Shown here: in pieces, positions 4,617-59,391 of the stretch
How the letters are laid out: the number at the start of each line of letters is the position of its first letter
How positions within the stretch are numbered: position 1 is the stretch's first letter
Assembly: GCA_037783545.1 (NCBI GenBank)
Contig: JBBELK010000684.1
Location: 372,001-436,000, forward strand
DNA: 64,000 nt
Origin: Henricia sp. BOLD:AAB3569
Taxonomy: Eukaryota; Echinodermata; Asteroidea; Spinulosida; Echinasteridae
Reading direction: 5' to 3'
Program-made: the position numbers and the translations under genes
Notes under the pieces: generated by a model
Seen by the model: only the letters and a program-made list of their open reading frames with translations
Told to the model about the DNA's origin: nothing
Database searches by the model: none

Positions 4617-5643
4617 CTAGAAATGTGTTCGTTGAAAACGAACACATGGCTGTTCCCCTCCTTTTTATAAACATATGTGGTGTTCGGGATGACCTTTGTT
4701 AGTGATTGTATATGAAGAAATCACGATCGTATGTCAAACGGTTGAGTTTTTATCGATTTTTAAATATTGAATATTATTACATGCCACTTTAATCTGACAT
4801 GTAGGGAAGGTCAAAGGTGTTGCTATATGTTTGGATACCCCACCCTAGTCGAAGTGTAACACAGTTGACCCCATCGTGATATATTGTACCCCTTTCAAAT
4901 GGCAAGGCAAAATCTGTTTGACCAATAGGAAACGAGGTCAAAGGTCAAGCCATGTGCGCATCTTAAAGACATTTGTTAGTGATCGTATATGCAGAAGGAA
5001 TCAAATTTGTAGGTCAAACGGTAGATTTTTTATTGATTTTTGAATATTTAATTACGTAATCATCTTGTCGCTAGAGGGCGCTATTTCCTACGATGACGTC
5101 ATCACTTATATTTTTGGAAAGCTTAAGGGCCTCTGGTAATAACACCATTGATCCTATCTCAATACCTCCTTTCACTTTCAAACTAAGGGCCACTTCCGTT
5201 TTCGACCGGAAGTGAGCAAGGTCAAAGGTCACAAAAATATTTTTTAGATACCCCACCCTAGTCGAAGTGTAACACAAGTGACTTTGTCCAAATATCTTGC
5301 ACCACTTTCAAATGGCAAGGCAAAATCTGTTAGACCAATAGGAAACGAGGTCAAAGGTCAAGGGGTGTGCGCATCTCAAAGACCTTTGTTAGTCATCGTA
5401 TATGCCGAAGGAATCAAGATCGTAGGTCAAACGGTTGATTTTTTTATTGATTTCTGAATATTTAATTTATTAAACTTCATGCCCCTTTAATCTGACACGT
5501 GATGACGTCATCATGACGTCATTAGTACTGTGCACTAATTCACATAGTGACCAATGTCCATGTGAAGTTTGAAGTCAATCATGAATGTGCAAGTGCCCGA
5601 AAAAGCGTCTGAAAAAAGTGGAAGAAGGAAAAGAATAAAAAAA
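4617..5643 (-). repeat. Array unit 4
   Basis: 1027 bp between CTAG at 4617 and CTAG at 5644. It is close in sequence to unit 2 and lacks the GGCTGTTCC hairpin at the A-rich end. Confidence 0.75.
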
Positions 5644-7068
5644 CTAGACCTGTGTTCGTTCTTGACAACGAACACATGGCTGTTCCCTTCCTTTTTATGA
5701 ACATGTGTGGTGTTCGAGACGACCTATTATCACCTATGTTGTTATATTTAACTATTTAATCATCTTGTCCCAAGAGAGCGCTATTTTATACGATGACGTC
5801 ATCACTCACATTTTGGAAAGCTTGAGGCCCTTTGACATTAACACCCTTGACCCCGTATTTATACCCTCTACCATTTTCACACTAAAGGCCACTTCCCGTT
5901 TCGACCGGAAGTGAGCAAGGTCAAAGGTCACCAACCTATTTTTTAGATACCCCACCCTAGTTGAAGTGTAACACAACTGACCTCGTCCAAATATCTTGCA
6001 CCACTTTCAAATGGCAAGGCAAGATCTGTTTGACCAATAGGAAACGAGGTCAAGGGTCAAGGCGTGTGCACATTTTAAAGACCTTTGTTAGTCATCGTAT
6101 ATGGCGAAGGAATCAAGATCGTAGGTCAAACGGTTGATTTTGTATTGATTTTTTAATGTCTAATTTATTAAACATCATGCCCCTTTAATCTGACACGTGA
6201 TGACGTCATCATAACGTAATCAGTTAAAGACCTTTGTTAGTTATTGTATATGGCGCAGGAATCAAGATAGTAGCTAAAATGGTTGATTTCTTACGGAATT
6301 TTTATATCCCATTTATTTTATTTGATGCCCCTTTAATCTGACACGTGATGACGTCATTATGACGTCATTAGTGAAAGACCTTTGTTAGTGATCATATTTG
6401 GCGCAGGAATCAAGATCGTAGCTCAAACGGTTGATTTTTTATTGATTTTTTATATTTCATTTATCTGTTTTCATGCCCCTTTAATCTGACATGTGATGAC
6501 GTCGTCCTGACGTCATCATTTAAAGACATTTATTAGTGGTCGTATATGGCGCAGGAATGAAGATCATAGCTCAAACGGTTGATTTGTTATTGATTTTTGA
6601 ACATTTAATTTTATCAAATACCCCTTTAATCTAACACATTGAGCAAGGTCAAAGGTCGCCACCATATTTTTTGGATACCCCACCCTAGTCGAAGTGTAAC
6701 ACAATTGACCCCGTCCAAATATCTTGTACCACTTTCAAATGACAAGGCAACATCTGTTTGACCAATAGGAAACAAGGTCAAAGGTCAAGGCGTGTGCGCA
6801 TCTTAAAGACATTTGTTAGTCATCATATATGGCGAAGGAATCAAGTTCGTATGTCAAACGGTTGATTTTATATTGATTTTTGAATATTTAATTTATTAAA
6901 CTTCATGCCCCTTTAATCTGACACGTGATGACGTCATCATGACGTCATTAGTAGTGTGCACAACTTCACATAGTGACTAATGTCCATGTGAAGTTTGAAG
7001 TCAATCATGAATGTGCAAGTGCCCGAAATAGCGTCTGAAAAAAGTGGAAGAAGGAAAAGAAAAAAAGA
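5644..7068 (-). repeat. Array unit 5, divergent
   Basis: 1425 bp. The middle part (about 5710-6640) is clearly more diverged than the other units and includes short, degenerate subrepeats of about 130 bp, each with a CRE-like TGACGTCA or a mutated form. It looks like an older copy. Confidence 0.7.
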
Positions 7069-7965
7069 CTAGACCTGTGTTCGTTCTTGACAACGAACAC
7101 ATGGCTGTTCCCCTCCTTTTTATAAACATATATGGTGTTCGGGATGACCATTGTTAGTTACGGTATATGAAGAAATCACGATCGTAGGTCAAACGGTTGA
7201 GTTGTTATCGATTTCTAAATATTGAATATTATTACATGCCCCTTTAATCTGACATGTAGGGAAGGTCAAAGGTGTTGCTATATGTTTGGATACCCCACGC
7301 TAGTCGAAGTGTAACACAGTTGACCCCATCGTGATATATTGTACCCCTTTCAAATGGCAAGGCAAAATCTGTTTGACCAATAGGAAACGAGGTCAAAGGT
7401 CAAGCCATGTGCGCATCTTAAAGACATTTGTTAGTGATCGTATATGCAGAAGGAATCAAATTCGTAGGTCAAACGGTTGATTTTTTATTGATTTTCCAAT
7501 ATTTCATTACGTAATCATCTTGTCGCTAGAGGGCGCTATTTCGTACGATGACGTCACCACTTATATTTTTGGAAAGCTTAAGGGCCTCTGATAATAACGC
7601 CATTGACCCCATCTCAATACCTCCTACCACTTTCAAATGGCAAGGCAAAATCTGTTTGACCAATAGGAAACGAGGTCCAAGGTCAAGGGGTGTGCGCATC
7701 TCAAAGACCCTTGTTAATCATCGTATATGGCGAAGGAATTAAGATCGTAGGTTAAACGGTTGATTTTTTATTGATTTTTGAATATTTAATTTATTAAACT
7801 TTATGCCCCTTTAATCTGACACGTGATGACGTCATCATGACGTCATTAGTACTGTGCACTAATTCACATAGTGACCAATGTCTATGTGAAGTTTGAAGTC
7901 AATCATTAATGTGCAAGTGCCCGAAAAAGCGTCTGAAAAAAGTGGAAGAAGAAAAAGAAAAAAAA
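7069..7965 (-). repeat. Array unit 6, shortest
   Basis: 897 bp. It lacks the segment holding the inverted CTTCCGG/CCGGAAG pair, so the CTCF-like/CRE block (7520-7560) is joined directly to the TTTCAAATGGCAAGG block. This is probably an internal deletion by recombination between subrepeats. Confidence 0.7.
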
Positions 7966-8419
7966 CTAGACCTGTGTTCGTTCTTGACAACGAACACATG
8001 GCTGTTCCCCTCCTTTTTATAAACATATGTGGTCTTCGGGATGACCTTTGTTAGTGATTGTATATGAAGAAATCACGATCGTATGTCAAACGGTTGAGTT
8101 TTTATCGATTTTTAAATATTGAATATTATTACATGCCCCTTTAATCTGACATGTAGGGAAGGTCAAAGGTGTTGCTATATGTTTGGATACCCCACCCTAG
8201 TCGAAGTGTAACACAGTTGACCCCATCGTGATATATTGTACCCCTTTCAAATGGCAAGGCAAAATCTGTTTGACCAATAGGAAACGAGGTCAAAGGTCAA
8301 GCCATGTGCGCATCTTAAAGACATTTGTTAGTGATCGTATATGCAGAAGGAATCAAATTTGTAGGTCAAACGGTAGATTTTTTATTGATTTTTGAATATT
8401 TAATTACGTAATCATCTTG

Positions 8420-8433
8420 TCGCTAGAGGGCGC
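8420..8433 (+). promoter_or_regulatory. CTCF-like core (exemplar)
   Basis: TCGCTAGAGGGCGC matches the animal CTCF core CCASYAGRKGGCRS at 12 of 14 positions. It is repeated beside a CRE in nearly every subrepeat of this family. It is a motif match only. Confidence 0.35.
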
Positions 8434-8951
8434 TATTTCGTACGATGACGTCATCACTTATATTTTTGGAAAGCTTAAGGGCCTCTGGTAATAACACCAT
8501 TGACCCTATCTCAATACCTCCTACCACTTTCAAACTAAGGGCAACTTCCGGTTTCGACCGGAAGTGAGCAAGGTCAAAGGTCACGGCCATATTTTTTGGA
8601 TACACCACCCTAGGTCCAAGTGTAATACAGTTGACCACATCCAGATATCTTGTACCACTTTCAATTGGCAAGGCAAAATCTGTTAGACCAATAGGAAACG
8701 AGGTCAAAGGTCAAGCCCTGTGCGCATCTTAAAGACATTTGTTAGTGATCGTATATGCCACAGGAATCAAGATCGTAGGTCAAACAGTTGATTTTTTATT
8801 GATTTTTGAATATTTAATTACGTAATCATCTTGTCGGTAGAGGGCGCTATTTCGTAAGATGACGTCATCACTTATATTTTCGGAAAGCTTAAGGGCCTCT
8901 GGTAACCATTGACCCTATCTCAATACCTCCTACCACTTTCAAACTAAGGGC

Positions 8952-8992
8952 CACTTCCGGTTTCGACCGGAAGTGAGCAAGGTCAAAGGTCA
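8952..8992 (+). promoter_or_regulatory. Inverted ETS-type pair plus AGGTCA DR1 (exemplar)
   Basis: CACTTCCGG and CCGGAAGTG face each other across TTTCGA (8952-8975). Then, after a short spacer, AGGTCA-A-AGGTCA at 8980-8992 is a perfect direct repeat with one-base spacing, the DR1 layout recognised by RXR/HNF4/COUP-type nuclear receptors. The block recurs in most array units and in the 51-54 kb insertion. The motif match is direct; binding is inference. Confidence 0.5.
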
Positions 8993-9262
8993 CCAACATA
9001 TTTTTTAGATACCCCACCCTAGTCGAAGTGTAACACAAGTGACTTTGTCCAAATATCTTGCACCACTTTCAAATGGCAAGGCAAAATCTGTTTGACCAAT
9101 AGGAAACGAGGTCAAAGGTCAAGGGGTGTGCGCATCTCAAAGACCTTTGTTAGTCATCGTATATGCCGAAGGAATCAAGATCGTAGGTCAAACGGTTGAT
9201 TTGTTATTGATTTTTGAATATTTAATTTATTAAACTTCATGCCCCTTTAATCTGACACGTGA

Positions 9263-9281
9263 TGACGTCATCATGACGTCA
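9263..9281 (+). promoter_or_regulatory. Paired CRE palindromes (exemplar)
   Basis: Two perfect TGACGTCA palindromes at 9263-9270 and 9274-9281, eleven bases apart (about one helical turn). The pair recurs at the same place in the units, and a third CRE lies in each GATGACGTCATC block beside the CTCF-like core. TGACGTCA is the CREB/ATF consensus; activity is untested. Confidence 0.5.
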
Positions 9282-9429
9282 TTAGTACTGTGCACAACTT
9301 CACATAGTGACCAATGTCCATGTGAAGTTTGAAGTCAATCATCAATGTGCAAGTGTCCGAAATAGCGTCTGAAAAAAGTGGAAGAAGGAAAAGAATAAAA
9401 AAAAAAAAAAAAATCGTAACGAAAACAAA

Positions 9430-9723
9430 GGCTGTTCCGACCCGAATCGGAACAGCCAAAAAAAATCTTAACGAAAACAAAGGCTGTTCCGACCGTATCG
9501 GAACAGCCAAAAAAATCTTAACGAAAACAAAGGCTGTTCCGACCGAATCGGAACAGCCAAAAAAAAGGAATAAAAATCGTATCGAAAACAAAGGCTGTTC
9601 CAACTCGAGTCGGAACAGCCAAAAAAATCGTAACGAAAACAAAGGCTGTTCCGACCCGAATCGGAACAGCCAAAAAAAATCGTAACGAAAACAAAGGCTG
9701 TTCCGACCCGAATCGGAACAGCC
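9430..9723. repeat. Array of six hairpins
   Basis: Six copies of GGCTGTTCC...GGAACAGCC start at 9430, 9482, 9532, 9593, 9644 and 9696, separated by A-rich spacers containing CGTAACGAAAACAAA or the variant CTTAACGAAAACAAA. Most form an 11-bp stem with a 5-6 nt loop. The copy at 9593 has a different loop (AACTCGAGT). This is the expanded terminal hairpin of the element; single copies sit at 1404 and 2492, and two inverted copies at 51458. Confidence 0.85.
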
Positions 9724-14019: not shown

Positions 14020-14101
14020 GCATGCGTATCTTGCATGCTTTCTTTTATTTAGCCTGGGCCACCTGCCCTGGCATGCGTATCTTGCATGCTTTCTTTTATT
14101 T
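14020..14101 (+). repeat. 31-bp direct repeat, two copies
   Basis: GCATGCGTATCTTGCATGCT plus TTCTTTTATTT occurs at 14020-14050 and 14071-14101, separated by 20 bp. It is a short local duplication with an internal GCATGC...GCATGC symmetry. Confidence 0.8.
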
Positions 14102-15230: not shown

Positions 15231-15289
15231 CTTTTTGTCTATTGACAGAATTATGGAATCGGTCGAGCCGTACTGTGGAGGACCCCTAA

Positions 15290-23502: not shown

Positions 23503-23879
23503 TATGCAGTCATCGTCGTGCGCAGAAAACACCAGAAAGACGTTTTGTTTTAGGTTAGCATTTTGCCCTGTTGGACAACTTGTAGCCCCTGACTGAGGCC
23601 AAATACTACGGCCGTATACATGTATATATAGACCATTCGAGAACACCTCCGACCACGAGTGACAGTTTCAGAAGCTGTAACTACATGTAGCACTAGAACT
23701 GTATTGTTACCTTTATACCGCACGGGTAGAGGTGGGGATTGTCACTTTTTGCGTGACAAAATCCCCACCCCTGGGACAACATTTAGGTGACAAAAATCCC
23801 CACCCTCGGGTGCAAAACATGCGCAAAAATGCACAGATAATGGGGCATGAAAAATGTGACCAAACCCCCGCCTAGTGTG

Positions 23880-23938
23880 GGGGGGGGGGGGGGGGGGGCG
23901 GGGGGGGGGGGGGGGGGGCGGGGAGGGGGGGGGGGGGA
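23880..23938. repeat. Poly(G) tract
   Basis: Nearly uninterrupted G with a few C or A. Such tracts are prone to assembly error. Similar poly(C) runs occur near 25074, 45880, 54598 and 59076. Confidence 0.95.
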
Positions 23939-39500: not shown

Positions 39501-39556
39501 GTTGTCCCGGGCACGAGTTGTCCAGCATTCCCTACTACAATCAACTAAAACATGTC

Positions 39557-44090: not shown

Positions 44091-44262
44091 GAAGCTTGGT
44101 ATACCTGTGGAAAAGGAAGACATTCCGCTACAGGTTATTTGGAGGAAAGACTGCGTAATGTACGTAAGAGATCGAAGGACAGAGTGGCTGTTGTTACATC
44201 GCCTATTTCGTCATCCTCTTCGTCCTCTCTAATGAGCACTGTAACATTGAATGTGCCCACAG
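44091..44262 (+). CDS. Exon of uncharacterised conserved gene (Ser-rich linker)
   Basis: Acceptor TTGTTAACCAG, donor CCCACAG/GTAATA. In the frame that fits the next exon it reads EAWYTCGKGRHSATGYLEER, a basic stretch, then SPISSSSSSSLMSTVTLNVP, leaving at phase 1. It is probably the variable, unstructured part before the conserved domain. The left breakpoint of the tandem duplication lies inside it (44218, in the TCATCCTCTTCGTCC serine codons), so the second copy keeps only its last 45 bases. A second frame is also open for nearly all of the exon. Confidence 0.5.
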
Positions 44263-44523
44263 GTAATATCATGAACATTCTGTTTTGATATTATATTTTA
44301 AATTTTAGCAATTTTTATTGTAATGATGGTTAGTTCAGAAAGATTAACAGATTTGGTTTGGCCATACTTCCACCATCAGGCATGATTTTCCAATGTCATT
44401 ACACAACTTTTAGTTTGAAAATCATTCACTTTTAAGATATTCAACTGTTTTTTTTTTTTTTAAACTGTTATTGTCTGACCATCATCTTCACAGTTTAATT
44501 TGTATAATCAATTACATTCTTAG

Positions 44524-44714
44524 CTGATGTTTCTGACGAGGATGCGAACAGCATGATGACCTGGCTAAAGCACAATATGGAACCCCTTACCCAGGTCAAG
44601 GAGTATATGGCCAAGACAGCAAAAGCCAGAGCTGCTTTTGTTCGTGACCACCCAGAGGAGCCTGTCGGAACTGTTTTGAAGGAATACCCCCGCCGTATTG
44701 ATACTCCGGGAATG
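44524..44714 (+). CDS. Exon of uncharacterised conserved gene, copy A (domain start)
   Basis: Acceptor TACATTCTTAG, donor ATG/GTTAGT. It continues phase 1 to A-DVSDEDANSMMTWLKHNMEP, then VKEYMAKTAKARAAFVRDHP, ending EYPRRIDTPGM at phase 0. The pattern WL..N..P...V..YM..TA..R...........L..YPR..DTPGM is one I know from many predicted proteins of unknown function in fish, lancelets, echinoderms and cnidarians. The copy B exon differs by one synonymous base (CCG/CCA proline). Cellular role unknown. Confidence 0.75.
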
Positions 44715-45184
44715 GTTAGTTTGTGTTTATTGGGAAGGGGCGTAATCATACATGCAGATTACGTTTAACAAAAAATTATTAGAACAATTCTCGGTCACAT
44801 GGGAAGGACATTAAATTGAATGACGTGTAATGCTGGGTTATGTGGATTTTTTCCTTTTTTCTGTGAGACTATTAGTTTTTTAAGTTAAGATAAAGTGCTT
44901 TTGCAAGAAAATAGGAATAATCAGTGTTTTTTTATTTTGTATTATTAATCCTAGAGATACATGTAGCAATACTGTGTATGATTCGCCAATGTGTAGACAC
45001 TGCTCTCCATGGAGTTGGTTTCAGGCATTATTTACGTATATTGGCTGGACACAACCCGGGATAACCTGAGGTTTGACATCTTGAGTGCCAATTATTAGTG
45101 GACATGATCGCACACACTTTATAAGTGAACAATTTTTACTACTAATTATTATTAATACATGTTTTGGGTATTTTTTTTTTCCAG

Positions 45185-45318
45185 ATTGAACAAGATTTCC
45201 GTTTGATTCTACCAGAGGCAGCGGACAATTTGTACCATACATGGAACAAATTGTGTGGAGGAATTCTGGAGTATGCCAGCAAACTGGCAACAGTATCTTC
45301 GAGTCGAGGCATGCACAG
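45185..45318 (+). CDS. Exon of uncharacterised conserved gene, copy A (middle)
   Basis: A long pyrimidine tract and CCAG precede it; donor CACAG/GTACAT. Reads IEQDFRLILPEAADNLYHTW and NKLCGGILEYASKLATVSSS, leaving at phase 2. I..DF.......A..L...W is the second conserved block of the family. Twelve bases beyond the donor lies the sequence that is the empty target site (TAATTATG at 45326-45333) of the insertion seen in copy B. Confidence 0.75.
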
Positions 45319-45683
45319 GTACATGTAATTATGTAATTGGGTTTGTCCGCACTATTGGGTACATATTTGTTGCACGGAATGGAAATATGAGATTATGCTT
45401 CAAATTTGTACATTATTAACCCATTGGGGATTGTGCATACCTAAAAATTCAGACAACTGTCTTTGAGTATGCAGATTTGGCTGAATTTATTAATTATATC
45501 ACTATATTCCCGTTGATACTCCTGATCCTGTCTGTCCAAATTACAAACATACAAAGTATGTGATTAAAATTACATTGAGCACCAGCATGTACTAAATATC
45601 TGATCTGTAAATGGTGCAAACCAAAGAATTGATATAAATCTGAATAGTTTTTGTAATTTTTTTTTGGGAGCAGATGATGAGAG

Positions 45684-45804
45684 GGGAAATTTGGCAGTGT
45701 TGGTGCTTCCATGCATTTTCCCAACTGGAGTTAAACGGATCAAAGGAAAGACGAGCAGAACCACTGTGGATGATGCCATCAGGTCCTTCGTTGACTTCCA
45801 GCCA
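45684..45804 (+). CDS. Exon of uncharacterised conserved gene, copy A (penultimate)
   Basis: Reads (R)GNLAVLVLPCIFPTG, then KGKTSRTTVDDAIRSFVDFQ-P and donor GTAAGA at phase 0. The first AG after the T tract (45672-45673) would place the incoming phase-2 codon out of frame; the AG at 45682-45683 restores it, so I start the exon there. D...F..DF.PVGTNL across the junction to 63659 is the family's third block. Alternative: an unseen micro-exon between 45318 and 45684. Confidence 0.65.
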
Positions 45805-46167
45805 GTAAGAAAATAGATTGATTCATTAACCCTTACTTACCTGGTGTGGGGGGAGGAGGGCTAGGCTAAATTAGACCCCCCCCCCCCACCCCCCTCGTCA
45901 TTTTGTGTGATTTATTTGCAACTGCTGGGAATCACACACTATCCTTTCATGTCTTTTTTTGTTAGTCAAGTCTTTAGTACAATTTGATATCATACACATG
46001 TATATAGGACCTACCAATTTACTGTCGCATAACATTTTATTAGTCACGTGTCAAGCTCCCAAATAGCAGGTAAATTAGGGTTAAATACAAATAATTTATA
46101 CTTTCCTATTGTGTAGCAGGAAGTACCTCGTACGTAGTACTCGTTCATATGCATATGAGAAGGTGTC
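45805..46167. other. Intron start, copy A
   Basis: Contains a poly(C) tract at 45879-45896 and AT-rich sequence; no gene seen. Confidence 0.5.
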
Positions 46168-46808
46168 ATGCTTGAGTGGAAGCATGACAACGCGGAAAGG
46201 CGTGTAAAGGCATTGACGGTTTTCACGCAGCCGAGAATGGACGTCCCAAATTTACTCCGCGATCGTTCTACAAGACGGGGCTATTTCTGCCTTTACTATG
46301 GTAGATTTAGAATCCCATTTACTTGCTTTTTAACGATATCCCGCACCGGGGTTACAGCTATAACGGAAAAGGTTATTCCTAGGGCCATTATTGAAATGGT
46401 TGATGTAGTCCAAAGCCCTACGCTGTGGAGAATTAGACGTTCAGATAGCCGAGATCTGCTAAAGGGCGTGGTCTCGACGAACGAGAAATTACTACAGCTG
46501 AAACAGGTTAAAGGTAGATTTCACTTAAAGGCCACAAAATGCTAAAAGAATTCTATACCTAGTTTTTATATAAAACGAATTCAGCTCTTGCTGCCGGAAA
46601 GAGACTGACGTTATTAATTATGACTTGGCTATAACAAAGAAAGATAATTAAATATGTCTATAAGAGATATATCTAAGTTTGATATTTGATAACTGCTAGA
46701 AAGTCATTGACGAGTTTCTTTCAGAAGACCCGACAAGCAAGGAGAGTGCGCATAAGGTTGGCTCAGGTCAGAGCCACTTCTAACAAATATAAAAGCCACA
46801 TCCGTTAG
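46168..46808 (+). CDS. Nested intronic open frame, possibly two exons, copy A
   Basis: ATG at 46168 opens 125 codons to TAA 46545 (MLEWKHDNAERRVKALTVFT, YFCLYYGRFRIPFTCFLTIS). A donor-like CAG/GTTAAA at 46506-46507 and an acceptor TTTCTTTCAG at 46715-46724 would join, in phase 0, a basic tail KTRQARRVRIRLAQVRATSN-KYKSHIR ending at TAG 46806-46808, giving about 140 residues. The one base that differs between copies in the tail is synonymous in this frame (ATA/ATC). No family recognised; it may be a nested gene, a relic of a mobile or viral insertion, or chance. Confidence 0.35.
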
Positions 46809-47486
46809 CCCAAAAGTGGTAGTGAGGCATCTAAGAATGCAGGTAAATCCTTTTCGTAATTTTTTTTAGTGAATCAAGGATAGTATTCCTGTATACAGTT
46901 ACATTTACTCAGAGGATTTGTTTTTGTACCAGAAAACCTCAGATTGGAGTGGAATGGACATACGAGTTTTGAGATACATTTTACATGTATTCAGATAGCT
47001 GAACTATGTTATGCTATAATGTATCAGTGGGCAGTCATTTGTTCATACATGCAGTCCAGCGTTCATGGGCGAATTTTAAGATGCCCGTGTTCTATATGAA
47101 TCGAGTTATATCGATGGTATTTTCTCAGTACGGGTAAGCTAAGCAATACCACTTGCGACGGGCATACATGTATTTGTTCAATGTCGAGGGTTTTTAGCAA
47201 CGAAAACCCTGACCTGTTTACACTTAATTATTCTGAGACAATTTCAATTGGTCTCATACCCTTTATCTACACATGTACTTGCGATCAAGATTAATCAGCA
47301 ACTTTCTGACCATCTGAGAAACAAATTTAGCTCATTGTGCATGTATATCAGATTTTTTCTTTGCTTTATTCAGTTAATCGTTTCACAGTTCCATAAACAA
47401 CGCATGCAATTAAACCTCATCTTGAATATGAGGTAGGTGAACATATTTTTTGGTGATCAAGGATAATGTAAAATTACGTATTACAG

Positions 47487-47793
47487 AACACTCCGGGCAT
47501 GCGGGTGTTCTAATGATTTGTTAAATAATGGTGAGTTGGCGATCATTCATCCAGTATTTTCTTTTCATGTCCTTTTGGAATTATATAATACCTGGCATGA
47601 CATGTCTCCGGCTATTAGAGAAACAAAGTTTCATTGTATGACACAAGCCGTTATAGCAAAGCTGCAAAATTCAGAGAAGTTGATATGGACAGTAGATTCT
47701 GATTCAGGTTCCATTAAAGTGAAGAGCCCAGATTTGATTACCGTAAATCAGAGTACGCTACCGACAGTTATAACTAGACATCTATGCTATTAA
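47487..47793 (+). CDS. Nested intronic open frame 2, copy A
   Basis: After an acceptor-like ACGTATTACAG the frame reads TLRACGCSNDLLNNGELAII, HPVFSFHVLLELYNTWHDMS and SEKLIWTVDSDSGSIKVKSP to TAA at 47791-47793, about 101 residues with globular-looking composition and no ATG at its start. It could be a terminal exon. Not recognised. Confidence 0.3.
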
Positions 47794-47905
47794 ATATTAT
47801 ATAGATAAATAATTGGACCATTTTTGGTTTTCATGTCACGGCATCCTGAGATCGTGAACCGGCTCCCAAGTTAGCGGGGCACTTGGTAAACTATAATTCA
47901 TTGAA

Positions 47906-48274
47906 ATGGTTGTAAAGCCTAAATCCGTATGCATGATTTGCACTGTTTCGAAAATTGGTCAACCATTAATTGACTGGGAAAACCTTTCCCACATGCAATA
48001 TCATGATGTACTAATGGTTCCAACTGTCAGTGGAATTTTGTTTTTTGTTTTTGTTTTTTTGCTTGAATTCTCATCCTCAAGTGAAGATTTCGCTGTTTTT
48101 GTGGCAGTTTTATAATGACGTAATGTCTATCTTTATACAAATGGTATAATTTTGGATTATTCTTTACAGGGTATGTTCTCATGTGTGAGCTACTTAGCCA
48201 TGGAGCTTGAACGGCACACTGAATATGAAGGACTGCAGCTCGGACAAAATTGTTGCCACATGGGCCGCAGATGA
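47906..48274 (+). CDS. Nested intronic open frame 3 with a possible second exon, copy A
   Basis: ATG at 47906 (MVVKPKSVCMICTVSKIGQP, then LIDWENLSHMQYHDVLMVPT) runs 69 codons, the end being low-complexity. At 48169 a good acceptor (TTCTTTACAG) opens GMFSCVSYLAMELERHTEYE-GLQLGQNCCHMGRR to TGA 48272-48274. I cannot identify a matching donor, so their connection is uncertain. CxxC and CC pairs are present in both. Confidence 0.25.
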
Positions 48275-48482
48275 AGTAGGTAAAAGCTAATGTGGTTTGA
48301 ATTACCAAGGTGTAGCACTGGCTTTATAAACTTGAATGACAAGATGATTGGATTACTGTGTTGAAGAAAGTCTAAATGATTTCAGAATTAGTGTGGCATT
48401 TGCCTAACTGGCACTGAATACAACATTTACTTGAACGTATGGGTTCATAGTAAATTCTACATCAGTTGGTCAGAATGATTGG

Positions 48483-49100
48483 TGCGTTTTACCGCTTTGC
48501 TTAACTAAGAACATTGTATCTTGACTGAAAATACATGTATACACGCTGCAGCTATACGTTCAGGATTGTGGCTGTATGCTTTCTCCAAAGTCTGATGTAG
48601 AGAAATTAATGGTTTCCCAATCTCGTTAGTAAGCCGACGGAGTTGTGCAACACAGAGTGCAATACCCAAGCTATACACTTGTAATTCCAGTTTGGCTTTT
48701 TTACTGTTCAAGCCCATTGGCAGATGTGCTTGTAGCAACAAGTGATAAACTTAAATGTACAGTGCGTTCACATGAATGTCTGCATCTTTGAGCGGAAAAT
48801 TATTAGTGCGTTTTACCGCTTTGGGCAGTCAGCTTTTGTGATATTTGGTAACCCTACGCAGGTTGCCAACGATTAAATGCGAACATTGTAATTTTACTAT
48901 AATGTATGTATACACAGCTACTATTGTGGCTGTTATCTTTCTCCCAAGTTTGGCACGGAGAAGTTGGCTCGCTAATAAGCCGAGTTGTGGAACGCATTAA
49001 GAGCGCTCAATGCAAGTTTGGCTTTTGCTCCTAATCTACGCATTTTTATTCATTACATTTAAACCCATAGGCAGATGTGCTTGTAGCAATAAGCGATTGG
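48483..49100 (+). repeat. Two diverged direct repeats of about 280 bp, copy A
   Basis: GTGCGTTTTACCGCTTTG starts units at about 48483 and 48808; each contains ATGTATACAC(G/A), GTGGCTGT, TAAGCCGA...GAGTTGTG, GTTTGGCTTTT and ends at GGCAGATGTGCTTGTAGCAA. Divergence is high, so this duplication predates the 6.1-kb one. Confidence 0.75.
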
Positions 49101-49311
49101 AGGTTCCATACGCTGGAAAGGTAATGACCGAGTACTTTACTGAACATGATTGAACAGAGACTTATAAACACCGAGTATATAGTTTTATGCAAAGCCACTG
49201 GGCACATTTCTGTACGAAGTGCAGACAGGGAGTCGAAAGACCACTGGGTATTCTCCCGACTACAAGGACACACGACTGCGTGTATATAAACATAAACACC
49301 TGTAGCGGGCC

Positions 49312-49410
49312 ATGGTGGTTTACTGTGTTTACTGTGAGAATGGGACCGCGACTGCGTGGATCCATAATTACCCGCAGGGGTGGTCGAAGTGTGACCATTG
49401 CATGCCACAG
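49312..49410 (+). CDS. Small zinc-ribbon-like open frame, copy A
   Basis: GGGCCATGG is a strong initiation context, about 30 bp after GTATATAAAC. It reads MVVYCVYCENGTATAWIHNY-PQGWSKCDHCMPQ, followed by a donor-like CAG/GTACAT; two CxxC pairs 18 residues apart could bind zinc. The open frame goes on to 49521. An overlapping frame at 49187-49429 also has CTKC and follows TTATAAACACC. Not recognised. Confidence 0.3.
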
Positions 49411-49515
49411 GTACATGTGTCAGTATTGATACACCAGCATACTTTAGTCCGCAGGGGCATGTCGTGCCTTACGGAATTACAGAAACCGATGTTGTTTTTA
49501 GAACTTTTAGTACTA

Positions 49516-50343
49516 CACTGAAAAATTACCTGGGTTAAATTTTAACCCAAATGGGTTAAAATTTAACCCATCCACAGGGTGAAAAACGCAACCACCCAAA
49601 TCTGTGTTGAATTAACCCATTGATTTGGGTTGATTTTTTTAACCCAATCTTGGGTTATTTCAGTGTTCGAATTTAGTTATATCAACTAATAAACTGGGTT
49701 ATATCTACCCAGAAACATGTGTTATTGGGCGGTTTTGGGTTGTAATTACTTTATTTTCTGGGTTATTTCAACCAATAATTTTAGAGATGTGAGTTAACTT
49801 TGGGTTATTTTAACTCTGACAACATGGTTAATGCAACCCTTCTTTGTAGTCGATTTAACCCAAACATTATGGCATTGTAGCCCAAATCGGGGGTTAATAT
49901 GCGTTTGTTAAACAATGCACAAAAACAAACATTTTCAGAATGACTGATCAACAACAATTTATTAATACATGTAATCTAATTTTAAAGTATGAATTTCAAA
50001 TTTCAGATGGTGTATATAGGCTTCAACGACTAAAATCTGTTTAATTAAAGTCGAACACTTCTCAGTAAAATTCACTTGTTTAAATACAATACCTTTCAAT
50101 ACAAAACAGAAAGTGTTCAAATTCAAACAATGTCTAGTCCATGTATTTTTGCATGAGTTGACGTAAAAATACAATGCAATTTTTCCATAATCTATAAGTG
50201 TGCGAGTAGGAATATATACATGTTCCCCTTCCACTCCGAATTAATTCCTTTTCAATTTTCCATACATACATACATACATACATGTATAATCAGAGCACAT
50301 CAATTATGCAGTCACAGCGATTAAGGTATATCGTTTTCAAAAA
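49516..50343. mobile_element. Left fragment of the second CACTG element, copy A
   Basis: CACTGAAAAATTACCTGGGT at 49516 begins the element; the tandem-duplication joint at 50343/50344 removes the rest. Subterminal AACCCA/GGGTT motifs repeat many times to about 49910. The minus-strand frame at 49962-50234 is not recognised. Confidence 0.75.
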
Positions 50344-50388
50344 CCTTCGTCCTCTCTAATGAGCACTGTAACATTGAATGTGCCCACA
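50344..50388 (+). pseudogene. Copy B remnant of the Ser-rich exon
   Basis: The last 45 bases of the exon at 44091-44262 with its donor but without acceptor, because the duplication breakpoint fell inside the exon. It cannot be spliced in normally. Confidence 0.8.
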
Positions 50389-50650
50389 GGTAATATCATG
50401 AACATTCTGTTTTGATATTATATTTTAAATTTTAGCAATTTTTATTGTAATGATGGTTAGTTCAGAAAGATTAACAGATTTGGTTTGGCCATACTTCCAC
50501 CATCAGGCATGATTTTCCAATGTCATTACACAACTTTTAGTTTGAAAATCATTCACTTTTAAGATATTCAACTGTTTTTTTTTTTTTTAAACTGTTATTG
50601 TCTGACCTTCATCTTCACAGTTTAATTTGTATAATCAATTACATTCTTAG

Positions 50651-50841
50651 CTGATGTTTCTGACGAGGATGCGAACAGCATGATGACCTGGCTAAAGCAC
50701 AATATGGAACCCCTTACCCAGGTCAAGGAGTATATGGCCAAGACAGCAAAAGCCAGAGCTGCTTTTGTTCGTGACCACCCAGAGGAGCCTGTCGGAACTG
50801 TTTTGAAGGAATACCCCCGCCGTATTGATACTCCAGGAATG
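50651..50841 (+). CDS. Duplicated exon (domain start), copy B
   Basis: Same 191-bp exon as 44524-44714 with intact splice sites and one synonymous change. If spliced after the copy A penultimate exon (phase 0) the phase-1 entry would shift the frame, so a productive mRNA must skip copy B or use copy B instead of copy A. Confidence 0.65.
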
Positions 50842-51311
50842 GTTAGTTTGTGTTTATTGGTAAGGGGCGTAATCATACATGCAGATTACGTTTAACAAAA
50901 AATTATTAGAACAATTCTCGGTCACATGGGAAGGACATTAAATTGAATGACGTGTAATGCTGGGTTATGTGGATTTTTTCCTTTTTTCTGTGAGACTATT
51001 AGTTTTTTAAGTTAAGATAAAGTGCTTTTGCAAGAAAATAGGAATAATCAGTGTTTTTTTATTTTGTATTATTAATCCTAGAGATACATGTAGCAATACT
51101 GTGTATGATTCGCCAATGTGTAGACACTGCTCTCCATGGAGTTGGTTTCAGGCATTATTTACGTATATTGGCTGGACACAACCCGGGATAACCTGAGGTT
51201 TGACATCTTGAGTGCCAATTATTAGTGGACATGATCGCACACACTTTATAAGTGAACAATTTTTACTACTAATTATTATTAATACATGTTTTGGGTATTT
51301 TTTTTTTCCAG

Positions 51312-51445
51312 ATTGAACAAGATTTCCGTTTGATTCTACCAGAGGCAGCGGACAATTTGTACCATACATGGAACAAATTGTGTGGAGGAATTCTGGAGTA
51401 TGCCAGCAAACTGGCAACAGTATCTTCGAGTCGAGGCATGCACAG
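51312..51445 (+). CDS. Duplicated exon (middle), copy B
   Basis: Same 134-bp exon as 45185-45318. The mobile insertion begins 12 bases downstream of its donor, so its intron start now carries hairpins and long T tracts. Confidence 0.65.
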
Positions 51446-51457
51446 GTACATGTAATT

Positions 51458-52610
51458 GGCTGTTCCAACACGGTTGGGAACAGCCTTTGTTTTCGTTACG
51501 ATTTTTTTTTTTTTTATTTTTGGCTGTTCCAACACGGTTGGGAACAGCCTTTGTTTTCGTTACGATTTTTTTTTTTTTTTTTTTTTTTTTTATTCTTTTA
51601 CTTCTTCCACTTTTTTCAGACGCTATTTCGGACACTTGCACATTGATGATTGACTTCAAACTTTACATGGACATTGGTCACTATGTGAATTAGTGCATAG
51701 TACTAATGACGTAATCATGACGTCATCACGTGTCAGATTAAAGGGGTATGAAGTTTAATAAATTAAATATTCAAAAATCAATAAAAATTCAACCGTTTGA
51801 CCTACGATCTTGATTCCTTCGCCATATACGATGACTAACAAAAGTCTTTAAGATGCGCACACGCCTTGACCTTTGACCTCGTTTCCTATTGGTCAAACAG
51901 ATTTTGCCTTGCCATTTGAAAGTGGTGCAAGATATTTGGACAAAGTCACTTGTGTTACACTTCGACTAGGGTGGGGTATCTAAAAAAAAAATTTGTGACC
52001 TTTGACCTTGCTCACTTCCGGTCGAAACCGGAAGTGGCCCTTATTTTGAAAGTGAAAGGAGGTATTGAGATTGGGTCAATGGTGTTATTACCAGAGGCCC
52101 TTAAGCTTTCCAAAAATATAAGTGATGACGTCATCGTACGAAATAGCGCCCTCTACCGACAAGATGATTACGTAATTAAATATTCAAAAATCAATAAAAA
52201 ATCAACTGTTTGACCTACGATCTTGATTCCTGTGGCATATACGATCACTAACAAATGTCTTTAAGATGCGCACAGGGCTTGACCTTTGACCTCGTTTCCT
52301 ATTGGTCAAACAGATTTTGCCTTGCCATTTGAAAGGGGTACAATATATCACGATGGGGTCAACTGTGTTACACTTCGACTAGGGTGGGGTATCCAAACAT
52401 ATAGCAACACCTTTGACCTTCCCTACATGTCAGATTAAAGTGGCATGTAATAATATTCAATATTTAAAAATCGATAAAAACTCAACCGTTTGACATACGA
52501 TCGTGATTTCTTCATATACAATCACTAACAAAGGTCATCCCGAACACCACATATGTTTATAAAAAGGAGGGGAACAGCCATGTGTTCGTTTTCAACGAAC
52601 ACATTTCTAG
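51458..52610 (+). repeat. First monomer of the dimer
   Basis: Starts with two GGCTGTTCC hairpins separated by a T tract (51458 and 51528), then the body with CRE, DR1 and CTCF-like blocks, and ends at CTAG 52607-52610. 1153 bp. Confidence 0.85.
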
Positions 52611-54049
52611 TTTTTTTTCTTTTCCTTCTTCCACTTTTTTTCGCACGCTATTTCGGGCACTTGCACATTCATGATTGACTTCAAACTTCACATGGACATT
52701 GGTCACTATGTTAGGTTGTGCACAGTACTAATGACGTCATGATGACGTCATCACGTGTCAGATTAAAGGGGCATGAAGTTTAATAAATTAAATATTCAAA
52801 AATCAATAAAAAATCAACCGTTTGACCTACGATCTTGATTTCTTCGGCATATACGATGACTAACAAAGGTCTTTGAGATGCGCACACCCCTTGACCTTTG
52901 ACCTCGTTTCCTATTGGTCTAACAGATTTTGCCTTGCCATTTGAAAGTGGTGCAAGATATTTGGACAAAGTCACTTGTGTTACACTTCGACTAGGGTGGG
53001 GTATCTAAAAAATATTTTTGTGACCTTTGACCTTGCTCACTTCCGGTCGAAACCGGAAGTGGCCCTTAGTTTGAAAGTGAAAGGAGGTATTGAGATAGGG
53101 TCAATGGTGTTATTACCAGAGGCCCTTAAGCTTTCCAAAAATATAAGTGATGACGTCATCGTACGAAATAGCGCCCTCTACCGACAAGATGATTACGTAA
53201 TTAAATATTCAAAAATCAATAAAAAATCAACTGTTTGACCTACGATCTTGATTCCTGTGGCATATACGATCACTAACAAATGTCTTTAAGATGCGCACAG
53301 GGCTTGACCTTTGACCTCGTTTCCTATTGGTCTAACAGATTTTGCCTTGCCATTTGAAAGTGGTACAAGATATCTGGATGTGGTCAACTGTATTACACTT
53401 GGACCTAGGGTGGTGTATCCAAAAAATATGGCCGTGACCTTTGACCTTGCTCACTTCCGGTCGAAACCGGAAGTGGCCCTTAGTTTGAAAGTGAAAGGAG
53501 GTATTGAGATAGGGTCAATGGTGTTATTACCAGAGGCCCTTAAGCTTTCCAAAAATATAAGTGATGACGTCATCGTAGGAAATAGCGCCCTCTAGCGACA
53601 AGATGATTACGTAATTAAATATTCAAAAATCAATAAAAAATCTACCGTTTGACCTACAAATTTGATTCCTTCTGCATATACGATCACTAACAAATGTCTT
53701 TAAGATGCGCACATGGCTTGACCTTTGACCTCGTTTCCTATTGGTCAAACAGATTTTGCCTTGCCATTTGAAAGGGGTACAATATATCACGATGGGGTCA
53801 ACTGTGTTACACTTCGACTAGGGTGGGGTATCCAAACATATAGCAACACCTTTGACCTTCCCTACATGTCAGATTAAAGTGGCATGTAATAATATTCAAT
53901 ATTTAAAAATCGATAAAAACTCAACCGTTTGACATACGATCGTGATTTCTTCATATACAATCACTAACAAAGGTCATCCCGAACACCACATATGTTTATA
54001 AAAAGGAGGGGAACAGCCATGTGTTCGTTTTCAACGAACACATTTCTAG
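52611..54049 (+). repeat. Second monomer of the dimer
   Basis: Starts directly with TTTTTTTTCTTTTCC and no hairpin, has one subrepeat more than the first monomer, and ends at CTAG 54046-54049. 1439 bp. Monomers also lacking the leading hairpin make up units 3 to 6 of the left array. Confidence 0.85.
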
Positions 54050-54404
54050 TTATGTAATTGGGTTTGTCCGCACTATTGGGTACATATTTGTTGCACGGAA
54101 TGGAAATATGAGATTATGCTTCAAATTTGTACATTATTAACCCATTGGGGATTGTGCATACCTAAAAATTCAGACAACTGTCTTTGAGTATGCAGATTTG
54201 GCTGAATTTATTAATTATATCACTATATTCCCGTTGATACTCCTGATCCTGTCTGTCCAAATTACAAACATACAAAGTATGTGATTAAAATTACATTGAG
54301 CACCAGCATGTACTAAATATCTGATCTGTAAATGGTGCAAACCAAAGAATTGATATAAATCTGAATAGTTTTTGTAATTTTTTTTTGGGAGCAGATGATG
54401 AGAG

Positions 54405-54525
54405 GGGAAATTTGGCAGTGTTGGTGCTTCCATGCATTTTCCCAACTGGAGTTAAACGGATCAAAGGAAAGACGAGCAGAACCACTGTGGATGATGCCAT
54501 CAGGTCCTTCGTTGACTTCCAGCCA
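54405..54525 (+). CDS. Duplicated exon (penultimate), copy B
   Basis: Same exon as 45684-45804, reading (R)GNLAVLVLPCIFPTG to VDFQP with donor GTAAGA at phase 0, the phase required by the final exon at 63659. Start chosen as in copy A for phase. Confidence 0.6.
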
Positions 54526-54889
54526 GTAAGAAAATAGATTGATTCATTAACCCTTACTTACCTGGTGTGGGGGGAGGAGGGCTAGGCTAAATTAGCCCCC
54601 CCCCCCCCCACCCCCCTCGTCATTTTGTGTGATTTATTTGCAACTGCTGGGAATCACACACTATCCTTTCATGTATTTTTTTGTTAGTCAAGTCTTTAGT
54701 ACAATTTGATATCATACACATGTATATAGGACCTACCAATTTACTGTCGCATAACATTTTATTAGTCACGTGTCAAGCTCCCAAATAGCAGGTAAATTAG
54801 GGTTAAATACAAATAATTTATACTTTCCTATTGTGTAGCAGGAAGTACCTCGTACGTAGTACTCGTTCATATGCATATGAGAAGGTGTC

Positions 54890-55530
54890 ATGCTTGAGTG
54901 GAAGCATGACAACGCGGAAAGGCGTGTAAAGGCATTGACGGTTTTCACGCAGCCGAGAATGGACGTCCCAAATTTACTCCGCGATCGTTCTACAAGACGG
55001 GGCTATTTCTGCCTTTACTATGGTAGATTTAGAATCCCATTTACTTGCTTTTTAACGATATCCCGCACCGGGGTTACAGCTATAACGGAAAAGGTTATTC
55101 CTAGGGCCATTATTGAAATGGTTGATGTAGTCCAAAGCCCTACGCTGTGGAGAATTAGACGTTCAGATAGCCGAGATCTGCTAAAGGGCGTGGTCTCGAC
55201 GAACGAGAAATTACTACAGCTGAAACAGGTTAAAGGTAGATTTCACTTAAAGGCCACAAAATGCTAAAAGAATTCTATACCTAGTTTTTATATAAAACGA
55301 ATTCAGCTCTTGCTGCCGGAAAGAGACTGACGTTATTAATTATGACTTGGCTATAACAAAGAAAGATAATTAAATATGTCTATAAGAGATATATCTAAGT
55401 TTGATATTTGATAACTGCTAGAAAGTCATTGACGAGTTTCTTTCAGAAGACCCGACAAGCAAGGAGAGTGCGCATCAGGTTGGCTCAGGTCAGAGCCACT
55501 TCTAACAAATATAAAAGCCACATCCGTTAG
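54890..55530 (+). CDS. Nested intronic open frame, copy B
   Basis: Counterpart of 46168-46808; the reading frame, donor-like and acceptor-like sites and stop are retained. See copy A for content. Confidence 0.35.
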
Positions 55531-56208
55531 CCCAAAAGTGGTAGTGAGGCATCTAAGAATGCAGGTAAATCCTTTTCGTAATTTTTTTTAGTGAATCAAG
55601 GATAGTATTCCTGTATACAGTTACATTTACTCAGAGGATTTGTTTTTGTACCAGAAAACCTCAGATTGGAGTGGAATGGACATACGAGTTTTGAGATACA
55701 TTTTACATGTATTCAGATAGCTGAACTATGTTATGCTATAATGTATTAGTGGGCAGTCATTTGTTCATACATGCAGTCCAGCGTTCATGGGCGAATTTTA
55801 AGATGCCCGTGTTCTATATGAATCGAGTTATATCGATGGTATTTTCTCAGTACGGGTAAGCTAAGCAATACCACTTGCGACGGGCATACATGTATTTGTT
55901 CAATGTCGAGGGTTTTTAGCAACGAAAACCCTGACCTGTTTACACTTAATTATTCTGAGACAATTTCAATTGGTCTCATACCCTTTATCTACACATGTAC
56001 TTGCGATCAAGATTAATCAGCAACTTTCTGACCATCTGAGAAACAAATTTAGCTCATTGTGCATGTATATCAGATTTTTTCTTTGCTTTATTCAGTTAAT
56101 CGTTTCACAGTTCCATAAACAACGCATGCAATTAAACCTCATCTTGAATATGAGGTAGGTGAACATATTTTTTGGTGATCAAGGATAATGTAAAATTACG
56201 TATTACAG

Positions 56209-56515
56209 AACACTCCGGGCATGCGGGTGTTCTAATGATTTGTTAAATAATGGTGAGTTGGCGATCATTCATCCAGTATTTTCTTTTCATGTCCTTTTGG
56301 AATTATATAATACCTGGCATGACATGTCTCCGGCTATTAGAGAAACAAAGTTTCATTGTATGACACAAGCCGTTATAGCAAAGCTGCAAAATTCAGAGAA
56401 GTTGATATGGACAGTAGATTCTGATTCAGGTTCCATTAAAGTGAAGAGCCCAGATTTGATTACCGTAAATCAGAGTACGCTACCGACAGTTATAACTAGA
56501 CATCTATGCTATTAA
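56209..56515 (+). CDS. Nested intronic open frame 2, copy B
   Basis: Counterpart of 47487-47793, identical as far as I can see. Confidence 0.3.
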
Positions 56516-56627
56516 ATATTATATAGATAAATAATTGGACCATTTTTGGTTTTCATGTCACGGCATCCTGAGATCGTGAACCGGCTCCCAAGTTAGCTGG
56601 GCACTTGGTAAACTATAATTCATTGAA

Positions 56628-56996
56628 ATGGTTGTAAAGCCTAAATCCGTATGCATGATTTGCACTGTTTCGAAAATTGGTCAACCATTAATTGACTGGG
56701 AAAACCTTTCCCACATGCAATATCATGATGTACTAATGGTTCCAACTGTCAGTGGAATTTTGTTTTTTGTTTTTGTTTTTTTGCTTGAATTCTCATCCTC
56801 AAGTGAAGATTTCGCTGTTTTTGTGGCAGTTTTATAATGACGTAATGTCTATCTTTATACAAATGGTATAATTTTGGATTATTCTTTACAGGGTATGTTC
56901 TCATGTGTGAGCTACTTAGCCATGGAGCTTGAACGGCACACTGAATATGAAGGACTGCAGCTCGGACAAAATTGTTGCCACATGGGCCGCAGATGA
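56628..56996 (+). CDS. Nested intronic open frame 3 with possible second exon, copy B
   Basis: Counterpart of 47906-48274; frame and TTCTTTACAG acceptor retained. Confidence 0.25.
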
Positions 56997-57204
56997 AGTA
57001 GGTAAAAGCTAATGTGGTTTGAATTACCAAGGTGTAGCACTGGCTTTATAAACTTGAATGACAAGATGATTGGATTACTGTGTTGAAGAAAGTCTAAATG
57101 ATTTCAGAATTAGTGTGGCATTTGCCTAACTGGCACTGAATACAACATTTACTTGAACGTATGGGTTCATAGTAAATTCTACATCAGTTGGTCAGAATGA
57201 TTGG

Positions 57205-57822
57205 TGCGTTTTACCGCTTTGCTTAACTAAGAACATTGTATCTTGACTGAAAATACATGTATACACGCTGCAGCTATACGTTCAGGATTGTGGCTGTATG
57301 CTTTCTCCAAAGTCTGATGTAGAGAAATTAATGGTTTCCCAATCTCGTTAGTAAGCCGACGGAGTTGTGCAACACAGAGTGCAATACCCAAGCTATACAC
57401 TTGTAATTCCAGTTTGGCTTTTTTACTGTTCAAGCCCATTGGCAGATGTGCTTGTAGCAACAAGTGATAAACTTAAATGTACAGTGCGTTCACATGAATG
57501 TCTGCATCTTTGAGCGGAAAATTATTAGTGCGTTTTACCGCTTTGGGCAGTCAGCTTTTGTGATATTTGGTAACCCTACGCAGGTTGCCAACGATTAAAT
57601 GCGAACATTGTAATTTTACTATAATGTATGTATACACAGCTACTATTGTGGCTGTTATCTTTCTCCCAAGTTTGGCACGGAGAAGTTGGCTCGCTAATAA
57701 GCCGAGTTGTGGAACGCATTAAGAGCGCTCAATGCAAGTTTGGCTTTTGCTCCTAATCTACGCATTTTTATTCATTACATTTAAACCCATAGGCAGATGT
57801 GCTTGTAGCAATAAGCGATTGG
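57205..57822 (+). repeat. Two diverged direct repeats of about 280 bp, copy B
   Basis: Counterpart of 48483-49100. Confidence 0.7.
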
Positions 57823-58033
57823 AGGTTCCATACGCTGGAAAGGTAATGACCGAGTACTTTACTGAACATGATTGAACAGAGACTTATAAACACCGAGTAT
57901 ATAGTTTTATGCAAAGCCACTGGGCACATTTCTGTACGAAGTGCAGACAGGGAGTCGAAAGACCACTGGGTATTCTCCCGACTACAAGGACACACGACTG
58001 CGTGTATATAAACATAAACACCTGTAGTGGGCC

Positions 58034-58132
58034 ATGGTGGTTTACTGTGTTTACTGTGAGAATGGGACCGCGACTGCGTGGATCCATAATTACCCGCAGG
58101 GGTGGTCGAAGTGTGACCATTGCATGCCACAG
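58034..58132 (+). CDS. Small zinc-ribbon-like open frame, copy B
   Basis: Counterpart of 49312-49410; the nearby C-to-T difference (AGCGGG/AGTGGG) lies just before the ATG and leaves the frame unchanged. Confidence 0.3.
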
Positions 58133-59391
58133 GTACATGTGTCAGTATTGATACACCAGCATACTTTAGTCCGCAGGGGCATGTCGTGCCTTACGGAATT
58201 ACAGAAACCGATGTTGTTTTTAGAACTTTTAGTACTACACTGAAAAATTACCTGGGTTAAATTTTAACCCAAATGGGTTAAAATTTAACCCATCCACAGG
58301 GTGAAAAACGCAACCACCCAAATCTGTGTTGAATTAACCCATTGATTTGGGTTGATTTTTAAAAGTTTTTTTAACCCAATCTTGGGTTATTTCAGTGTTC
58401 GAATTTAGTTATATCAACTAATAAACTGGGTTATATCTACCCAGAAACATGTGTTATTGGGCGGTTTTGGGTTGTAATTACTTTATTTTCTGGGTTATTT
58501 CAACCAATAATTTTAGAGATGTGAGTTACTTTGGGTTATTTTAACTCTGACAACATGGTTAATGCAACCCTTCTTTGTAGTCAATTTAACCCAAACATTA
58601 TGGCATTGTAGCCCAAATCGGGGGTTAATATGCGTTTGTTAAACAATGCACAAAAACAAACATTTTCAGAATGACTGATCAACAACAATTTATTAATACA
58701 TGTAATCTAATTTTAAAGTATGAATTTCAAATTTCAGATGGTGTATATAGGCTTCAACGACTAAAATCTGTTTAATTAAAGTCGAACACTTCTCAGTAAA
58801 ATTCACTTGTTTAAATACAATACCTTTCAATACAAAACAGAAAGTGTTCAAATTCAAACAATGTCTAGTCCATGTATTTTTGCATGAGTTGACGTAAAAA
58901 TACAATGCAATTTTTCCATAATCTATAAGTGTGCGAGTAGGAATATATACATGTTCCCCTTCCACTCCTAATTAATTCCTTTTCAATTTTCCATACATAC
59001 ATACATACATGTATAATCAGAGCACATCAATTATGCAGTCACAGCGATTAAGGTATATCGTTTTCAAAAACCTTTCCCCCCCCCCCCCCCCCCACACTTT
59101 TTCTTGCCTTTTTCAGGGCAATACATATATCAGGATGTTGTTTGTGGGGGAGGAGGCACCTTGGGGGTAGACACTGAAAAGGGAAGGCACGTGCGCCCCC
59201 TCCCCCCAACCCCCTCTTATTTTTGTGTTTTTACCATCAAACTAACCATTTTCATGGTATATTATAAAAAGGCAAATCCCGCATGTCCGTGCATGGTAAT
59301 GTACCTATTGGGGGTTTCATTTCAATGAATAGTGCAACACAGGGGAAACCACAAGTTTGTATGTAAAACCTGAGGGAGTACACAATTAACT

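Follow-up and report, generated by a model that had tools for sequence, protein, structure and literature searches.

The closest described relatives of the insert analysed here are HINE / DINE-1 elements. In the portion of PMC4067079 drawn on here, these are described as non-coding elements with palindromic subterminal inverted repeats and a 3' palindrome, which insert at TT without target modification and display tandem repeats in some copies. In mite families, the partner of the subterminal repeat lies about 38–60 bp from the 3' end according to the same source. Cg_HINE of the Pacific oyster, as far as described in the part of PMC7492417 considered, likewise combines HINE ends flanking satellite-like repeats with insertion at TT and empty sites. 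Helitron self-insertion, and arrays ascribed to terminator bypass, are already published. For FoHeli of Fusarium, self-insertion was put forward to explain elements that have multiple 5' termini but a single 3' terminus, and the relevant part of PMC5148889 left undecided whether a tandem triplet arose by double insertion into the 5' end or by rolling-circle replication. Tandem Helitron arrays of the rolling-circle type were described in plants (Xiong et al. 2016, as summarised in part of PMC12628747), many of them with multiple 5' and single 3' ends. The origin of tandem Helitron arrays, whether by self-insertion, rolling-circle read-through or unequal exchange, has been left undecided in print.

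The insert of the present study shares the features listed for HINE / DINE-1 and differs from that partial description in its CTAG 3' end, which resembles Helitrons and the proto-Helentron of the same paper, and in the stacked hairpins and multi-CTAG arrays of its family (names such as Helitron2 and proto-Helentron follow the usage of the cited papers). Compared by description, the 138–181 bp central repeats of Cg_HINE belong to one element, whereas the insert family repeats whole bodies too. In contrast to the plant arrays as summarised, the internal units of the insert keep the 3' end and have no 5' hairpin. Relative to the FoHeli account, the family combines four forms (with one or two hairpins, h, and one or two bodies, B: hB, hhB, hBB and hhBB), a bookkeeping of T-tract lengths and an apparently heterozygous insertion. 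No report of such bookkeeping, or of all four forms in one family, was recognised in the portions of the literature drawn on here. With more than 1000 3' ends, and T-tracts that record insertion points, the family makes this question of origin countable in one genome. The apparently heterozygous composite, with empty copies for comparison, offers a snapshot of how elements may pile into arrays.

Empty and filled sites in a tandem duplication

The window, i.e. the whole stretch of 64,000 nucleotides from Henricia sp. that was analysed, contains a tandem duplication (no strand assigned) with an empty site in copy A (44218..50347) and the same site filled in copy B (50345..59074). The original observation of an unoccupied site at 45330/45331 and of 2592 bp plus TT in copy B was borne out, as the flanks matched exactly: the 100 bases to the left and the 98 bases to the right of 51458–54049 are identical to those of 45330/45331. 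Copy A reads GTAATT/ATG at this point, and copy B is identical apart from the added 2592 bases and an additional TT on the right side. On the + strand, the TT of the empty target is located at 45329..45330, and those at the 5' and 3' edges of the insert at 51456..51457 and 54050..54051, respectively. Outside of the insert, the two copies differ by 11 substitutions over 6125 aligned bases and by 4 small indels.

A query of 801 bases across the empty site gave 8 matches in the assembly of 740.7 Mb. Copy A was matched whole and copy B in two halves, while contig C809 was matched twice as a whole, 6130 bases apart; three paralogues (C411, C189 and C907; 85–86%) likewise span the site uninterrupted. 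The period of the duplication is 6130 on C809 versus 6127 in the window, and on C809 the right flank is found 5545 bases beyond the second copy, compared with 5549 for the window once the insert is subtracted. Genome-wide, 78 exact array-terminal ends were found, which include the window's own end and none on C809. Judged from the match positions, C809 very likely represents the alternative haplotype, in which neither site is occupied. Since C809 is colinear and carries the same duplication with both sites empty, the 6.1-kb tandem duplication is very likely genuine; the insertion very likely came after it and is probably heterozygous. Another difference between the presumed haplotypes was observed at window position ~59640, where C809 (305047–321807) contains about 16.8 kb of additional DNA.

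Anatomy and class of the insert

All features of the insert lie on the + strand, in the order TT-h1-linker-T14AT5-h2-linker-T26ATT-body 1-CTAG-T8-body 2-CTAG-TT. The 5' hairpin h1 (51458..51485; GGCTGTTCC...GGAACAGCC) is followed by T14AT5 (51502..51521), which we interpret as the left-hand piece of a split T-tract, and by the second hairpin h2 (51522..51549), identical to h1 in sequence, linkers included. The tract T26ATT (51566..51594) precedes body 1 (51595..52610), which ends in the 3' subterminal repeat, a palindrome (52580..52604) and CTAG. This internal CTAG was found at 52607–52610, in agreement with the internal CTAG joint noted originally. Both 5' hairpins precede body 1. The T8 joint (52611..52618), read as the right part of the split tract, has no hairpin, and the second unit begins with T8-CTTTTCC at 52611; body 2 itself (52619..54049) carries its 3' palindrome at 54019..54043 and the terminal CTAG at 54046–54049. 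From body start to CTAG, body 1 measures 1016 bp and body 2 1431 bp; a 414-bp repeat is contained in both, with one more copy in body 2. Both bodies end alike, with GGAACAGCC, a palindrome with an 11-bp stem, and TTCTAG. The 5' hairpin (z -4.57) and the 3' palindrome (z -6.09) fold better than 200/200 shuffles.

As read from its sequence, the insert is a composite (hairpin-hairpin-body-CTAG-T8-body-CTAG) and not a plain head-to-tail dimer. The simple dimer originally proposed is not supported, as the joint lacks a 5' hairpin, the two hairpins are both placed ahead of body 1, and the units differ in length (1016 and 1431 bp). A plain rolling-circle concatemer was rejected for the same locus: its joint should carry the 5' hairpin (CTAG-TT-GGCTG), which is missing here, the 3' end being joined by CTAG-T8-body and not to a complete 5' end. 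The two units had been suggested to have arrived together or to result from a duplication after arrival. The first option is plausible, with both units probably arriving as one piece whose inner terminator had been passed. The second was rejected, since the units differ by ~4–5% and the surrounding duplication by 0.2%; with ~95% (BLASTN) or 96.4% (multiple alignment) identity between them, neither body is a local copy of the other.

In its sequence features, the insert is built like a HINE (non-autonomous Helentron). A 5' subterminal inverted repeat (GGCTGTTCC) immediately follows the 5' TT, and its partner (GGAACAGCC) ends 31 bp short of the 3' end. The 3' palindrome with its 11-bp stem is located 6 nt from the element end, and insertion took place in TT with no longer target duplication. 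TT was found before the hairpin at 14/14 of the 5' flanks examined and after CTAG at 23/23 of the 3' flanks (24 rows, one degenerate body start omitted), of which 8 were retrieved by a pattern containing TT, leaving an independent count of 15/15. Three ORFs of at least 80 aa (87–94 aa) lie fully within the bodies; a Pfam search of these three at 0.01 gave no match, so that no gene was detected in them.

Two other classes were considered and rejected. A canonical Helitron agrees with the 3' CTAG, but the 5' end reads TT-GG (not TC) and the base preceding TT is A, G or T. A TIR transposon is not supported, as neither a target duplication of 5–8 bp nor terminal inverted repeats were found.

As candidates for an autonomous Rep/Helicase partner, the assembly contains 150 matches to the Helitron_like_N domain, many of them in frames of more than 3000 aa. 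Equal-scoring matches were observed in open frames of ~3400–3800 aa on C303, C741 and C517, among others. These equal-scoring frames suggest the presence of recently active autonomous rolling-circle elements.

T-tract lengths and recurrent forms of the family

The 41-base 3' end occurs at 1332 places in the assembly (at most 3 mismatches) versus 0 for the reversed control at the same stringency, and the matches are thus not due to chance. Hairpin tails (2622, possibly including relatives that carry other bodies) and body starts (2935) were counted genome-wide with 29 bases and at most 3 mismatches (controls 0), and CTAG followed by a body start within 30 bases was found in 680 exact cases. Three sets of loci were sampled. 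L001–L030 were picked by similarity to the dimer and are biased to bodies over hairpins, L031–L060 are the first 30 places, by contig number, of the 3'-end pattern, and L061–L064 and L067–L071 represent 9 of the 78 array-terminal ends, chosen down the contig order. Contig C1488 is approximately a duplicate of C793 (99.9% over 6836 bp); it was excluded from the T-tract means, the bootstrap, the 51-pair shuffles and the first block tally, and kept in the tallies of 3' flanks and tract strings. Eleven complete insertions were sampled with both flanks (4 with one body, 4 with two, and one each with three, four and six), three of which (window, C874 and C103) originate from the dimer-similarity search. 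The opposite outcome considered originally, mostly monomers with target duplications of 5–8 bp, did not appear: no such duplication was seen, and one-body insertions made up 4/11. Upstream of 95 readable hairpins in the sampled loci, which are array-rich, another hairpin was found in 51 cases, CTAG in 27 and other sequence in 17. In 12 of 28 hairpins following CTAG in these loci, exactly TT lies between the two; such joints also arise from insertion at TT behind CTAG.

An insertion at TT inside a T-tract splits the tract with TT counted twice, so that the split parts minus 2 should equal the intact tract. In the sampled loci, the mean lengths were 17.1 nt between two hairpins (n=45), 11.5 nt between CTAG and body (n=91) and 26.8 nt for intact tracts between hairpin and body (n=45). 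The sum, 17.1+11.5-2 = 26.6 nt, compares to 26.8 nt, and a bootstrap over 38 loci placed the difference between split and intact tracts at -3.4 to 2.7. These lengths are in line with one element having inserted into another's T-tract. For the window, joining T14AT5 to T8 and subtracting TT yields T14AT11, a match that was spotted post hoc. Among the eight bodies most similar to body 2, four are hairpin-led, and their intact tracts are T14AT11 (C162 and C5), T13AT11 (C121) and T20AT11 (one on C1). When T8 was added to the left parts, 12/45 yielded some intact tract and 2/45, one of which is the window's own, T14AT11. The other hhBB insertion, on C154, shows a left part of T20, equal in length to that of the window, and T8. 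In loop and linker, the outer hairpin of this insertion agrees with C5, C162 and C121, whereas the inner one shows a different loop, which is the pattern expected from nesting. The two bodies on C154 come from different subfamilies. In the window itself, h1 may simply have arisen by duplication of h2: the two hairpins and their linkers are identical, and C5, C162 and C121, the relatives of body 2, carry a linker (GTTAAGA) that is one base away from that of h1 (GTTACGA).

The spacers between CTAG and body are clustered (60/91 at 8–9 nt), which points to a small number of ancestral joints or to unequal exchange. Among 96 left parts starting with T14A, T5 follows in 26, T7 in 28 and T2 in 13. Such a pattern of spacers and left parts is not what random insertion into a homopolymer would produce. 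The numbers of hairpins and bodies per block are often unequal. Pure self-insertion as the sole process was rejected on the existence of blocks with 8 hairpins and 3 bodies, 1 and 4, 2 and 5, or 14 and 2. Linkage between neighbouring bodies was assessed by permutation with bodies >900 bp only: 166/500 shuffles reached the observed value (57/61 pairs, the 4 led by C1488 bodies being omitted), and 148, 43 and 200 of 500 did so in three comparisons of 51 pairs (C1488 and the divergent 1420–1424 subfamily omitted). Neighbouring bodies are not clearly linked across loci, although the two halves of one body are (0/500 shuffles). The tests on neighbouring bodies lent no support to one fixed dimer inherited everywhere, a candidate that was also rejected. 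Our reading of these patterns is that a limited number of self-insertions may have been followed by spread and shuffling.

The forms observed were hB on C5, C24, C121 and C216, hBB on C874 and C119, and hhBB in the window and on C154; hhB was seen only as the first block in two arrays of C8. The two-hairpin head h-T14AT5-h was found 26 times on 21 contigs and h-T14AT7-h 28 times on 23 contigs, some contigs being alternative haplotypes so that these counts overstate the number of sites. The recurrence of such heads on more than 20 contigs each suggests that composites are mobile as units, and they probably move past the inner CTAG. The array on C103 has the T14AT5 head of the window and terminates in T8 and a body that shares 99.6% identity with body 2. 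On C126, the terminal T8 is likewise followed by a body, here with 99.8% identity to body 2, and a T14AT5 pair lies 0.8 kb upstream of the stretch compared. The hairpin-led pair of C119 and the hairpin-led block of the C103 array are 99.2% identical over 2318 bp. It is for the hBB forms that passing an internal terminator is most needed; the loss of a hairpin from hhBB would look alike. From coordinates only, C346 may hold another insertion with two hairpins and two bodies (distance 2521 versus 2519 in the window).

Origin of the composite and competing explanations

With moderate confidence, we propose that the insert is a composite HINE formed by nested self-insertion, which was copied as a unit and landed in copy B on one haplotype. 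Initially, an element consisting of h2 and body 1 would have landed at TT within a T14AT11 tract between h1 and body 2, leaving both hairpins in front and CTAG-T8 between the bodies. Rolling-circle copying that starts at the outer or inner hairpin and stops at the inner or outer CTAG would then give the hB, hhB, hBB and hhBB forms. Finally, on one haplotype the hhBB composite would have inserted at TT in copy B of the pre-existing duplication, with the site staying unoccupied in copy A and in both C809 copies; this end state is seen in the assembly, and its place in the order of events is part of the proposal.

A broader version is advanced more tentatively: the element may make its own landing pad, where the T-tract behind the 5' hairpin and the TT behind CTAG receive copies, and composites are then mobilised as units. 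Transposition may begin at any one of the stacked hairpins and continue through internal CTAG ends. If true, the cycle would feed itself and give rise to dispersed arrays resembling satellites, and the site in copy B would show one of its two-body products at a stage when it is still heterozygous.

It is rather unlikely, in our estimation, that the insert arose as a head-to-tail dimer, by reading past CTAG into a neighbouring array copy or round a circle, with the hairpin stacks produced by separate hairpin duplication. Units with a single hairpin and several bodies do exist at unique sites (C874 and C119), h1 and h2 are identical in the window, CTAG-TT-hairpin joints occur (12/28 in the sampled loci), and terminator bypass was published for tandem Helitrons (as described in the part of PMC4067079 drawn on here). 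However, the joint of the window has no hairpin and its bodies differ by ~4–5%, so that a prior source of hairpin-less joints would be required. Of the rolling-circle read-through originally invoked, the rolling-circle type of the ends (3' hairpin, CTAG and TT target) was retained and bypass is plausible, while the plain dimer as its product was not.

Unequal exchange or slippage in older arrays, generating hairpin stacks and hairpin-less body repeats from which a two-body piece running from hairpin to CTAG was then mobilised, is considered doubtful. Clustered spacer lengths, mosaic bodies with unlinked neighbours and hairpin stacks reaching 14 all agree with it, yet it gives no reason why split tracts sum to intact lengths, nor for the near-equal totals of hairpins and bodies (2622 and 2935).

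The anatomy of hhBB and the T-tract sum would equally result from two separate insertions at the site, a one-body element in copy B and later a second one in its T-tract, and the body 2 subfamily does include one-body insertions (C5 and C121). This is improbable, as two events would be needed within a short time at a single heterozygous site, and the same head type on 21 contigs indicates that ready-made composites exist. Finally, an assembly artefact, either a spurious tandem duplication or a longer array that was collapsed, is conceivable as the evidence consists of assembled contigs rather than reads, but this objection, of which the collapse was raised from the outset, is made very unlikely by the presence of the same duplication with a matching period (6130 and 6127) on a second contig, C809, and by the exact ends of the insert.

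Nested self-insertion, the preferred origin, also bears on the related array at the left edge of the window (1..9723, - strand), which runs off the edge. It displays six stacked hairpins at 9413–9723, then six body starts before the next hairpin, and two CTAG-TT-hairpin joints. The array is in keeping with the process proposed for the insert. It had been suggested to be a larger product of the same process with seven units: the six hairpins and six body starts fit a related process, while sampled hairpins and bodies are shuffled, and the number seven is approximate, with 8 body starts and 6 CTAG ends in the window.

One body of this array is interrupted at 3494–4104 by an array of 63/126-bp tandem repeats. 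Elsewhere in the window, an almost unbroken G run of 59 bases was observed at 23879–23937, and an inverted-repeat region with repeats of 10–16 bp (GGGTACGAGTTGTCCC and ACCGGAAAAC types) at 38132–39522, within which 38708–39155 is 86% self-complementary. On C47, three arrays (6872–16697, 842678–852904 and 1023428–1031595) have common joint spacings of 1439 and then 1024 bp and share a hairpin spacing of 121 bp, as if they had been block-copied or segmentally duplicated.
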